Positions 13,158 through 30,841 of a stretch of DNA of 33,110 bases are shown here, piece after piece; the first letter of the stretch is position 1; each line of letters opens with the position of its first letter. The translations under genes and the position numbers were made by a program. This stretch comes from a virus, in the IMG/VR virus record IMGVR_UViG_3300034064_001092, positions 1 through 33,110 of that record, one strand, 5' to 3'. The notes under the pieces were generated by a model. The model was not told the origin of the DNA and searched no databases. It saw only the letters and a program-made list of their open reading frames with translations.

Positions 13158-13199
13158 GTCCGAGCGTCGCCCATCTGGGTGACGCTCGGACTTTTATTT
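13158..13199 (+). terminator. Strong intrinsic terminator after capsid
   Basis: GTCCGAGCGTC (13158-13168) pairs perfectly with GACGCTCGGAC (13181-13191). The stem continues inward through GCCC/GGGT (one G-U pair) to a 4-base loop, about 15 bp in all. TTTTATTT (13192-13199) follows. It is the strongest terminator in the window. Confidence 0.88.
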
Positions 13200-13212
13200 G
13201 GAGGGTGAGGCA

Positions 13213-14454
13213 ATGACGCTCCGCATCGCTTGGTCAAGCAATGCCCCTTGGACGGGCTCGGGATATGGCGTGCAGACCGCCGAAATTGTTCCGCGCTTGG
13301 TTGCAGACGGCCACGAAGTCGCGATTCTCGCAAATCACGGGCTTGCGGGTTCAATCATCAATTGGGGCAATCCGCCCGTCCCCGTATTCCCGCAAGGGAT
13401 TGACGCGTATTCAAACGATGTCCACCCCGCGCAGATTGCAAACCACATCGGTGACCAGCAGCATCGCGGGCTGGGGGTCACATTGTTTGATGTCTGGGTT
13501 TTCAAAGCCCCGCAATGGGACGAAGTTCCGTTGCTGTGTTGGACACCGATTGACCACAATCCCGTGACACCGGAAGTGTCTGCATTCTTCAATCGTCCGG
13601 GTCGCAAATGGGCGTTGGCGATGTCGAAGTTTGGCGAACAAGCGTTGCTTGATTCTGGCGTTTCGCGCGAACGCGTATTCTACGCGCCGCATTCATACGA
13701 CCCGAACATCTTCAAGCCAGAAGGCGAAACGATGCGGGAGAAAATGCAGATCCCCGCGGATGCACATGTGACGATGATGAATGCCGCGAACAAGGGAAAC
13801 ACCCCTATTCGGAAGTGCTTCCCGGAGAATCTGGCCGCGTGGTCGGAATTCGCACGGCGACACGACGACGCGTTCCTATACCTTCACACCGAAGCGTCCG
13901 GGATCGCCAATGGCGTGAACATCCATCGGTTGTTGAAAGCGGTGGGAGCGCCAGAAAAGCAAGTCCGCATCGTTCCGCAATTTGAATATCGAATGGGCAT
14001 TTCCGCGCAGACGGTCGCGGCATTGATTCGATCAAGCGATGTGCTGCTGGCCACCGCACGCGGGGAAGGCTTCGGCGTGCCAACGCTTGAAGCCCAAGCC
14101 ACGGGCGTTCCGGTCATCGTCACGAATTGGACGGCATCCCCGGAATTGGTCGGTCACGGGTGGATCGTTGACGGTCAAAAAGAATGGGACGAATTCCAAG
14201 CGTCGTTCTGGAAGTTGCCATCGGTTGACGGCATCATTGACGCGCTTGAACAATCGTATGCATTGAAGGGTGACACGGCACGGCTGGCAGAAGCCCGCGC
14301 CGCATCCATCAAATTCGCGGAACCATACCAGACCGACAATGTGTTTGCGACCCATTGGCGACCAATCTTGGGTTCAATGGAAACCATATTGGCCGAAGGC
14401 ATCAAACCGATCAATCGTGAACAACGGCGTGCCGCCGTAAGGGGGAAGCGATGA
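13213..14454 (+). CDS. Glycosyltransferase, GT4-like (GT-B fold)
   Basis: A 413-aa protein from ATG 13213 with SD GGAGGGTGAGG. The N-terminus MTLRIAWSSNAPWTGSGYGVQTAEIVPRLVADGHEVAIL is the nucleotide-sugar GT-B start, with a glycine-rich GSGYG loop. The C-terminal half has VRIVPQFEYRMGISAQTVAALIRSSDVLLATARGEGFGVPTLEAQATGVPVIVTNWTASPELVG. This carries the GT4 hallmark GEGFG.P.lEAqA.G.PVi. It probably transfers a sugar to a phage component or to modified DNA. It is the first gene of a three-gene sugar cassette under the promoter at 13128-13156, between capsid and connector genes. Confidence 0.85.
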   Translation: MTLRIAWSSNAPWTGSGYGVQTAEIVPRLVADGHEVAILANHGLAGSIINWGNPPVPVFPQGIDAYSNDVHPAQIANHIGDQQHRGLGVTLFDVWVFKAPQWDEVPLLCWTPIDHNPVTPEVSAFFNRPGRKWALAMSKFGEQALLDSGVSRERVFYAPHSYDPNIFKPEGETMREKMQIPADAHVTMMNAANKGNTPIRKCFPENLAAWSEFARRHDDAFLYLHTEASGIANGVNIHRLLKAVGAPEKQVRIVPQFEYRMGISAQTVAALIRSSDVLLATARGEGFGVPTLEAQATGVPVIVTNWTASPELVGHGWIVDGQKEWDEFQASFWKLPSVDGIIDALEQSYALKGDTARLAEARAASIKFAEPYQTDNVFATHWRPILGSMETILAEGIKPINREQRRAAVRGKR

Positions 14455-28841: not shown

Positions 28842-28929
28842 CATTCGGACGATGATCTTGGACGCTCTGGCATTGGCGGCATTCATCGGGGCGATGGTGT
28901 TGCTGCTCGCATTGGGGGCAATGCGATGA
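28834..28929 (+). CDS. 31-aa single-pass membrane peptide
   Basis: MNDIRTMILDALALAAFIGAMVLLLALGAMR has one hydrophobic helix. ATG 28834 has an SD (GGAGG at 28823) and overlaps the previous gene; its stop overlaps the next ATG (ATGA). The role is unknown. Early single-pass peptides in phages often modify host membranes or block superinfection; this is speculation. Confidence 0.55.
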   Translation: MNDIRTMILDALALAAFIGAMVLLLALGAMR

Positions 28930-29402
28930 TCGCCGTGACATATCCGTCGCTGTTCAAGACGACACCCGATGCGAAGGTCGAATCTTGGGACGCGCTGGTT
29001 GATTTGTTGTCCACGCACCGTGAAAACGCAGACAAGGAACGCGCGCCGATGTGGTCGCCCGTGACCCTTGCCGATGGTGGGAGGCGGTGCAATGCGGCGG
29101 TGGTCGCCGTCAACGCGATGGTCGTTGATGTGGACGGCGGCACGGCGTTCGAGGTGGCAAAGCAACGCGTCGCGGGGCGTGATTGGGTGGCGTATTCCAC
29201 CCATTCCCACACCCCGGAAACGCCGCGATTTCACTTGGTCGTTCGGTTGGATCAACCGATTTCCGGCGAACGATGGGCGAAGGAATACGACCGCATCCGT
29301 GGCGAAATCGGGTGCGGGGATGTGTTGCGCGCCCCGTGCCACTCGTATTTTCTGCCGCAACACCGTCCGAATGCGGAATGGTTTGTTGAGGTGGGGCGAT
29401 GA
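28926..29402 (+). CDS. AEP-like primase/RepB-type domain protein
   Basis: A 158-aa protein. AVNAMVVDVDGG puts D68-x-D70 at the catalytic position. WVAYSTHSHTPETPRFHLVVRLDQPISGERW follows with H93, H95 and R101-F-H103, and LRAPCHSYFLPQHRPNAEWFV at the end. The order D.D ... YSTxSHt...PRfHlv.rld.Pi ... fflP is that of archaeo-eukaryotic-type primase domains in plasmid and phage replication proteins. Here it is a stand-alone unit without an adjacent helicase or polymerase. It may prime DNA synthesis for host polymerases. The ATG overlaps both neighbours (ATGA). Confidence 0.6.
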   Translation: MIAVTYPSLFKTTPDAKVESWDALVDLLSTHRENADKERAPMWSPVTLADGGRRCNAAVVAVNAMVVDVDGGTAFEVAKQRVAGRDWVAYSTHSHTPETPRFHLVVRLDQPISGERWAKEYDRIRGEIGCGDVLRAPCHSYFLPQHRPNAEWFVEVGR

Positions 29403-30841
29403 CATTGCGACACGCATCGTTTTTTTCTGGCGCGGGTGGATTGGACATCGGGTTTGAACGGGCGGGAATCCGCACCGTGTCGCATTCCGAGATTGATCCA
29501 TACGCGTCCGCGGTCTTGAAACGCCATTGGCCGGAAACGCCAAACCTTGGCGACATCACGGCAATCAAATCGGAGGACATCCCAAATGCAGAAATCTGGT
29601 CGGGGGGATTCCCGTGCCAAGACCTCAGCGTCGCCGGAAAACGCGCTGGGTTCGGCGGTGAACGGTCATCCCTCGCATTCACATTCCTCGACCTTGTGGA
29701 ACAGCGACGACCTCGGTGGCTCGTGCTGGAAAATGTCGCGGGACTTTTCACATCCAACAATGGTGCAGATTTCAGACGGCTCATTGGGGAGATTGCCCAA
29801 CTCGGGTATGGCGTGGCGTGGCGCGTCCTCGACGCTCGCCATTTCGGTGTTGCACAACGACGAAGGCGCGTCTTCATCGTCTGCAACCGTGACGACGCTT
29901 TCAATGGTGTTGGAGCGCAACGCGCCGCGGAGGTTCTCGTTGAGTGCGAAGGCGGCTGCGGGCATATTGCGGCGGGCGGATCGTCGCGGGAAAACGCTGC
30001 CGGAATCGTTGCGGATGGCGTTGGAACAATTGGAACAATCATCGCGGGAATTGATCGCGGAACCGGAACCACCCAAGACGAACTTTTCGTCGGGTACGGT
30101 GACCGAAAACCCGCCGTCATCAATTCGTCGGTTGACACCCGTGGAAACGGAACGGTTGATGGGCTGGCCCGACGGCTGGACAATCGTGGAGTCGTGGGGC
30201 AAACCGAAAATGGGATTGTTCAATCGGAAACGGAAGTGACCGCGTATCAAACACGCGTGGATGAAAAACACGGCAACTTCACCTTGGCGAAGGTTGATGT
30301 CGCAAATTCGATTTCGGCGTTGTGGGCGGCAGACACGTCGCACCGGTCAATGACGCTGGTGAATGCGGTTGATCACAAACGGGTTGGCAATTTTGAATTG
30401 TGGGATTTCCCGACCGATGCGGTCAACCCGACGCTAAATGCCAGACGCGCACGGGATCAAATCGCGTATTCGGAAACTCCCGTGTTGTCATTCCCGTCAC
30501 GCTTCGGGTCAAATGCGAATGTCACCGAAGACCAAGCGCAATCATTCGCCCACAATGCGGGCGCTCCCGCGGTCATGGTTGGCGCGTCGTATGACGGGAT
30601 CAACCAGAAATTTGATGGCGATGGCGCACATCGAACGCTTCGCGTCGGGCGTGATTCGTCGGATTTCGTGGTCGCGGAACCGAACACGGTGGACAACGAT
30701 GCGATGTTGCCCGTCGGTTTGGACGGTCACCGCTATCGGTGCTGCGGGAATGGCGTTGTCGCTCCCGTGGCGGAATGGATTGGCCGCCGCATTGTTGCGG
30801 TGGATGCCAAATATTGGGCAGAAGGAGGCGCAAATGGCTGA
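29399..30841 (+). CDS. Cytosine-C5 DNA methyltransferase with a large variable domain
   Basis: A 480-aa protein. Motif I is HASFFSGAGGLDIGFERAG (residues ~5-23), motif IV GGFPCQDLSVAGKR with catalytic C73, motif VI LVLENVAGL (E111-N-V), and motif VIII QRRRRVFIV (~153-161). The C-terminus has motif X (RCCGNGVVAPVAEWIGRRI). Between ~175 and ~440 lies a variable target-recognition region (TAYQTRVDEKHGNF, ALWAADTSHRSM, NPTLNARRA). The usual RRLTP.E..rLqGfPdgwT (motif IX) is missing from this frame and appears in another frame at 30126-30182. It probably methylates phage DNA against host restriction; no restriction partner is nearby. The target sequence cannot be told. Confidence 0.85.
   Translation: MTLRHASFFSGAGGLDIGFERAGIRTVSHSEIDPYASAVLKRHWPETPNLGDITAIKSEDIPNAEIWSGGFPCQDLSVAGKRAGFGGERSSLAFTFLDLVEQRRPRWLVLENVAGLFTSNNGADFRRLIGEIAQLGYGVAWRVLDARHFGVAQRRRRVFIVCNRDDAFNGVGAQRAAEVLVECEGGCGHIAAGGSSRENAAGIVADGVGTIGTIIAGIDRGTGTTQDELFVGYGDRKPAVINSSVDTRGNGTVDGLARRLDNRGVVGQTENGIVQSETEVTAYQTRVDEKHGNFTLAKVDVANSISALWAADTSHRSMTLVNAVDHKRVGNFELWDFPTDAVNPTLNARRARDQIAYSETPVLSFPSRFGSNANVTEDQAQSFAHNAGAPAVMVGASYDGINQKFDGDGAHRTLRVGRDSSDFVVAEPNTVDNDAMLPVGLDGHRYRCCGNGVVAPVAEWIGRRIVAVDAKYWAEGGANG
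29586..30239 (+). CDS. Overlapping gene in a second frame inside the methyltransferase
   Basis: Up to 217 aa from ATG 29586; GGAGG lies at 29572-29576 (9 bases away). A TTG at 29547 would be 13 codons earlier. The C-terminal half is not random shadow: NSGMAWRGASSTLAISVLHNDEG is followed by RRFSLSAKAAAGILRRADRRGKTLPESLRMALE. It then has SSIRRLTPVETERLMGWPDGWT, which is motif IX of C5 methyltransferases. I recall this 'SLSaKA..GILRRAe.RGK.LP' segment from phage methyltransferase-linked proteins. It ends KMGLFNRKRK. It may be a separate methyltransferase subunit or result from a frameshift. This region would then be dual-coding. Confidence 0.5.
   Translation: MQKSGRGDSRAKTSASPENALGSAVNGHPSHSHSSTLWNSDDLGGSCWKMSRDFSHPTMVQISDGSLGRLPNSGMAWRGASSTLAISVLHNDEGASSSSATVTTLSMVLERNAPRRFSLSAKAAAGILRRADRRGKTLPESLRMALEQLEQSSRELIAEPEPPKTNFSSGTVTENPPSSIRRLTPVETERLMGWPDGWTIVESWGKPKMGLFNRKRK

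Follow-up and report, generated by a model that had tools for sequence, protein, structure and literature searches.

Motif IX in a second, overlapping frame of a viral C5-cytosine DNA methyltransferase gene, and a probable hidden partner-domain gene in complete phage enzymes

The window analysed here, a stretch of 33,110 nt, is an entire IMG/VR virus record whose terminase, portal, protease and head genes are of the tailed-phage type. Right after the head genes, at 13198-14454, lies a gene for a predicted glycosyltransferase (PHROG 2170, moron/host takeover category). The gene located directly 5' of the methyltransferase studied here (28926-29402) matches phage primase/helicase families (best E 6e-8). 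Its stop codon overlaps the start of the main methyltransferase frame (frame A) within an ATGA, an arrangement that suggests translational coupling of the two genes.

Frame A, the alpha chain of a C5-cytosine DNA methyltransferase, is open from its ATG to its TGA (Table 1). The motifs that define the catalytic domain of this family (I, IV with PCQ, VI with ENV, and VIII) are all found within the first 165 residues of its translation. Residues 4-167 match Pfam DNA_methylase (PF00145) with an E value of 3e-55, a match that covers motifs I-VIII only, and TIGR00675 (NCBIfam) is matched with 188 bits for a cutoff of 100.65, here also over the N-terminal part only. Motif IX was sought in the translation of frame A and is absent from it, while motif X (HRYRCCGNGVVAPVAEWIGRRI) lies close to the C-terminus. 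Translation and Pfam match thus bear out the sequence-only reading, according to which the main frame has motifs I, IV, VI, VIII and X and lacks IX. The variable segment that precedes motif X is presumed, from its position, to be the target-recognition region, although its structure is modelled with low confidence.

The missing motif is carried by frame B, the putative beta chain, which lies wholly inside A. Frame B matches profile positions 252-297 of PF00145 (E 7e-4), and its translation places motif IX exactly where the sequence-only reading had put it; the family profile of frame B (A5) also matches the motif IX region of M.HhaI. Motifs IX and X of the C5-cytosine DNA methyltransferases are therefore both present at the locus, but across two chains, IX in B and X in A. 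The ATG of frame B follows a GGAGG by 9 nt, as had been noticed earlier, and every coordinate given in the sequence-only reading proved correct. A TTG located 39 nt before this ATG (29547) is also open in frame B. Upstream of motif IX, frame B encodes a small helical domain, named the B domain hereafter. No family corresponding to this domain was found in PHROGs, Pfam or NCBIfam, where the only matches of frame B are to methyltransferase models and, weakly, to a few PHROGs without a name, all of which span motif IX. A sequence search of the PDB with frame B alone gave no match up to E 1. The possibility that B is a duplicate of A was rejected, as profile-profile comparison of B with A showed no similarity.

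Table 1. Position of the features of the studied methyltransferase locus and of the loci compared with it
Feature	Position	Strand	Description and evidence
Frame A (alpha chain)	29399..30841	+	480 aa; carries motifs I-VIII and X of a C5-cytosine DNA methyltransferase
Motif I, FFSGAGGLDIGF	29420..29455	+	Frame A translation; mostly invariant in alignment A4
Shine-Dalgarno of frame B, GGAGG	29572..29576	+	Sequence; ATG at 29586
Frame B (beta chain)	29586..30239	+	217 aa; ORF in +1 relative to A
Motif IV with catalytic Cys, GGFPCQDLS	29603..29629	+	Frame A translation; invariant in A4 except one position
Motif VI, ENV	29729..29737	+	Frame A translation; invariant in A4
Motif VIII, QRRRRVF	29855..29875	+	Frame A translation; near invariant in A4
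B domain, LSMVLERNAPRRFSLSAKAAAGILRRADRRGKTLPESLRMALEQL...	29898..30056	+	Small helical domain, frame B; AlphaFold2 helices, B-frame codon periodicity, profile score
Motif IX, RRLTPVETERLMGWPDGWT	30126..30182	+	Frame B only; profile A5 against M.HhaI 270-298
Variable segment	30240..30700	+	Frame A alone; presumed target-recognition region; A-frame codon periodicity restored
Motif X, LDGHRYRCCGNGVVAPVAEWIGRRI	30719..30793	+	Frame A translation; GNGVV invariant in A4; differences at codon positions 1/2/3 of.320/.234/.643
Hidden +1 ORF in P1 dmt, gut isolate	L097:2141-2635		B domain
Hidden +1 ORF in P1 dmt, reference P1 genome	L337:499-987		B domain
Complete methyltransferase with C-terminal in-frame B domain	L353:1480-2706	-	Sequence
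Gammaproteobacterial chromosomal locus	L351:1308-3185		Overlapping alpha and beta methyltransferase genes

Searching IMG/VR with frame B led to 80 loci sharing 42-80% identity with it, nearly all over B residues 2 to about 204. Once duplicates were removed, 61 loci, including the studied one, have motif IX in B but lack it in A. B is offset by +1 relative to A in all of these split loci (61/61), A is open across the entire overlap, and most of them have a recognisable motif X in A. The length of the alpha chain ranges from about 320 to 630 aa in relatives. It should be kept in mind that the set was gathered partly via the motif IX pattern in B, so that the constraint on motif IX is partly ascertained, which is not the case of the other segments.

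The sequence-only reading had also considered the relic of a domain rearrangement; a recent frameshift or rearrangement would have left a broken methyltransferase, with B as its remnant. The unusual order of the motifs in the DNA, where IX stands ahead of (5' to) the presumed target-recognition segment, would agree with such an accident. However, 61 distinct loci keep both frames open, with B identity as low as 42%, and the 32 non-redundant viral split members form one supported clade (98/93) in a tree of motifs I-VIII. The relic is hardly credible and was rejected.

The mere length of the B reading frame was dropped as evidence for the studied locus, since B is left open in 20% of the synonymous-codon permutations of A. 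The profile score of the B domain is far more discriminating. For 14 of 14 correctly parsed loci (L002, read from a wrong ORF, being left out), it exceeds those of all 200 synonymous permutations of A made for each locus; at the studied locus, a leave-one-out profile gives 80.1 vs 14.2 +/- 7.6 for the permuted sequences. Furthermore, third-position identity was compared at four-fold A codons having the same first two bases, in pairs of loci with less than 75% A identity. It amounts to.303 before the overlap and.296/.253 after it, whereas the overlap, cut into four consecutive parts, gives.514/.490/.663/.943, the last value (94%, motif IX part) being partly ascertained because motif IX in B served as a search pattern. 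Synonymous variation of A is thus strongly suppressed inside the overlap and saturated outside.

The same contrast is seen in the periodicity of substitutions. At positions 1/2/3 of the A codons, differences amount to.272/.216/.614 before the overlap; they are.516/.346/.315 over the B domain,.494/.242/.159 over motif IX and.440/.415/.684 after the overlap (30240..30700). In the B domain and in motif IX, the most variable site is therefore A position 1, i.e., B position 3, whereas A position 3, i.e., B position 2, varies least. The return of the normal A periodicity after the overlap suggests that A is also translated through to motif X. Over 29883-30237, B identity is higher than A identity in 98% of the pairs of loci.

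The motif IV-VIII part of the overlap behaves differently, B identity being.49 there vs.79 for A, and the conservation of B residues 1-104 is in part a by-product of the conserved motifs of A. As B identity is mostly imposed by A in this part, B could be regarded as a shadow of A or as a nucleotide-level element (RNA structure, homing site) rather than as a protein. This is nevertheless very improbable: the B domain and motif IX are more conserved in B than in A, their variable site is the third base of B codons, synonymous permutations of A never attain the observed B profile score, and a copy of the domain occurs in frame, without any overlap (see below). Conservation across relatives is decisive between dual coding and chance. 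These comparisons show both frames to be conserved as protein-coding sequence, with the motifs divided between A and B; the true dual coding put forward in the sequence-only reading is supported by synonymous constraint and by the flip of periodicity across relatives.

Structure predictions by AlphaFold2 are in line with this division. In frame A, residues 1-182 form a confident catalytic domain, whose best PDB match in a fold search is M.HhaI, and the helix of motif X is well modelled. By contrast, residues 183-287 of A, whose coding sequence covers the greater part of the conserved B domain and motif IX, are predicted to be disordered. In frame B, residues 1-104 are disordered and helices are predicted at 105-108, 121-134 and 140-157 (pLDDT about 96 over residues 121-150), as well as at motif IX. 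A being disordered where B is helical, the DNA that is most conserved in frame B would encode a linker in frame A. A fold search with the frame B model found nothing meaningful (best Z 3.9), which gives no ground to call the B fold new.

How B is reached by ribosomes may be approached from its start site. A 5-base Shine-Dalgarno followed by a B-frame ATG occurs in 41 of the 61 split loci, with a spacing of 9 nt (6 nt in two of them); the 5-base sequence is absent before B in about 20 of the 61, so the start is not uniform. This unit stands 38 nt before the PCQ codons in most relatives and 26 nt before them in the studied locus and a few others. Its spacing is fixed while its position differs by 12 nt between clades, which suggests that the unit moved as a whole. 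The conservation of such a moving unit at the start of B favours independent initiation over frameshifting.

Ribosomal frameshifting from A would produce an A(I-VIII)-B(IX) fusion, besides or in place of a free beta chain. Such a fusion would unite motifs I-VIII and IX on one chain, the offset is +1 throughout, and homopolymer runs are located at frame changes in L005, L006 and L129, a few relatives that do not belong to the split family. However, homopolymers of this kind were sought in the split family and none was found, and the fusion product would be devoid of motif X. Considering also the Shine-Dalgarno-ATG unit described above, frameshifting is unlikely. Thus, among the origins proposed in the sequence-only reading, the comparative data favour the separate subunit, a frameshift product being less likely.

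A two-chain organisation of this type is not without precedent. M.EcoHK31I (YGGCCR) was reportedly described by Lee et al. in 1995 as having a small chain (about 176 aa) read in an alternative frame within the gene of the large chain (about 309 aa). The location of B, wholly inside A in +1, corresponds to this alternative-frame arrangement. In M.EcoHK31I, motifs I-VIII and X and the TRD are borne by the large subunit and motif IX by the small one (PMC3404938), and the studied locus shows the same partition, I-VIII and X on the large chain and IX on the small one. The likeness concerns the motif layout and the overlap of the two frames. Unlike M.EcoHK31I, the studied locus is viral, no restriction enzyme was identified beside it, and its alpha chain is longer and more variable. 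M.AquI (CYCGRG) is also a C5 methyltransferase made of two polypeptides with motif IX on the small one (PMC3404938), as in the studied locus. However, the beta chain of AquI holds both IX and X, whereas X is on alpha in the studied locus and its relatives, which therefore are not of the AquI type.

A second protein concealed in another frame of a phage methylase gene is known from ShiLan, but there the hidden protein is an HNH endonuclease encoded by a mobile insertion of 202 codons, whereas frame B carries a methyltransferase motif. A hidden HNH of this type was rejected for frame B, which matches no HNH family in Pfam, NCBIfam or PHROGs. Another methylase pair overlapping in +1 is found in the mycobacteriophage Phanphagia (gp65/gp66; L007:2501-3527). 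It was rejected as an instance of the same arrangement, gp66 being a different methyltransferase C-terminus without B domain.

Taken together, the motif partition and the published work on M.EcoHK31I (PMC3404938) lead to a heterodimer model, in which the locus very probably encodes an M.EcoHK31I-like, two-polypeptide C5-cytosine methyltransferase, A being the catalytic alpha chain and B a beta chain with motif IX made from an internal start. The alpha chain would hold motifs I-VIII (AdoMet and catalysis) along with motif X and the presumed target-recognition region. For the beta chain, translation would start independently at the internal ATG and read that mRNA in +1, giving a product with the small helical domain and motif IX. 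In single-chain enzymes, motif IX organises the DNA-binding small domain. Alpha would be inactive by itself; together with beta, it would form a complex on DNA and methylate the genome of the phage, which would most likely be hidden from host restriction in this way. From these comparisons we infer the translation of B, the assembly of the heterodimer, its activity, its site specificity and its anti-restriction role.

The B domain is not confined to the studied overlap. Homologues of the second frame, for which the sequence-only reading had recommended a search, are present in hundreds of other loci, in one of which the domain is in frame and non-overlapping. In complete methyltransferases of phages and prophages, a B domain devoid of motif IX lies in the +1 frame and is covered by A. 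The domain is in +1 in 80/80 of the IMG/VR loci fetched with the B alignment and in 78/80 of those from bacterial genomes, and, where motifs could be placed in these loci, IX is in A in most. A set picked by A motifs IV and VI alone has the B domain in 73/80, the alignment of these A motifs having itself been built from B-bearing genes. For the 57 members of this set with a B domain lacking motif IX, identity over the domain is.59 in B vs.315 in A, and position 3 of the B codons is the most variable (.625).

The dmt gene of phage P1 is among these complete methyltransferases. It contains, after motif VIII and at the same place, a hidden +1 ORF with a B domain, found in a gut isolate and in the reference genome; in the reference P1 and in a Providencia phage, the hidden frame was read from translations. 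P1 Dmt and other complete phage C5 methyltransferases thus resemble the studied locus by the B domain in +1 after motif VIII, but their main frame contains motif IX as well as motif X, the enzyme being complete on one chain and the overlapping ORF having no motif IX. In P1 dmt, the stretch between about 531 and 750 is the sole part that aligns at the DNA level with several Vibrio/Pseudomonas phage methyltransferases.

The genome of the planctomycete Zavarzinella formosa (L117, G004) gives several separate matches to the B profile and thus has several such methyltransferases. Runs of nine G or C are located between motifs VI and VIII in Faecalibacterium phage Toutatis (L005, near 2448), Curvibacter phage PCA1 (L006, near 2348) and an Eubacteriales MAG (L129, near 3023), which are precisely the loci having motifs VI and VIII in different frames. 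Of the other fetched loci in which a B domain was recognised, L155 alone has such a run within 400 nt upstream (C7, near another frame change). These runs of nine could correspond to slippage, to a phase-variable switch or to sequencing indels.

In one bacterial genome, a complete single-frame C5 methyltransferase has a B domain in frame after motif X. Other in-frame B domains were sought across the order to which this genome (G298) belongs, and only that one genome has one. Although a single case, this fusion argues that the domain works with the methyltransferase. Together with the fixed association of the B domain with methyltransferases, it suggests that the domain would act as a partner subunit even in enzymes that already have motif IX. 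B could otherwise be a separate accessory protein, such as a regulator or an anti-restriction factor, with a motif IX that is of no use to the methyltransferase of A. Indeed, as IX-less domains overlap methyltransferases already endowed with IX, supplying this motif need not be the basic role of B. An accessory protein is however quite unlikely, since motif IX is missing from A and present in B in the split family, and since nearly all copies of the domain are encoded within a methyltransferase gene, one being fused to the enzyme in frame, which points to a partner function.

A counterpart of the two-polypeptide methyltransferase proposed here was found on a gammaproteobacterial chromosome. 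Its alpha chain (302 aa) has motifs I-VIII and X and its beta chain, in +1, has motif IX; the chain sizes resemble those of M.EcoHK31I, and an alignment of this locus with frame B over 177 columns gives 32%. The pair adjoins a convergent ORF with no family match, which could be a restriction enzyme and make the locus R-M-like, of the EcoHK31I type. In the tree of motifs I-VIII, this split locus sits elsewhere than the viral split clade, among complete enzymes, on a long branch and in a tree whose bootstrap had not fully settled. Its position outside the viral clade implies at least two changes. It is probable that a hidden same-strand +1 gene for a partner domain is ancient and widespread in C5 methyltransferases of phages and prophages, P1 dmt included, and went unrecognised as gene callers suppress long overlaps, and that two-subunit enzymes of the EcoHK31I type appeared on two occasions or more according to the present tree, through the takeover of motif IX by the hidden gene.

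The split architecture is itself of a known kind. For the large viral split clade and for a hidden beta-like gene in complete phage methyltransferases, no report was found in a limited literature search. Long same-strand overlaps with protein-level selection on both frames are rare and usually hard to prove; the codon statistics of dozens of loci back the one studied here, in which an essential motif is divided between the frames. Recognition of the hidden gene would correct the annotation of many phages, prophages and P1-like plasmids. Its family would also be a natural source of split methyltransferases, akin to the EcoHK31I parts already in use for targeted methylation (PMC3439449). The hidden gene in P1 dmt makes its function testable in a standard laboratory phage. 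Finally, such a gene would explain the unusual conservation, at the DNA level, of the strip that follows motif VIII in phage methyltransferases.
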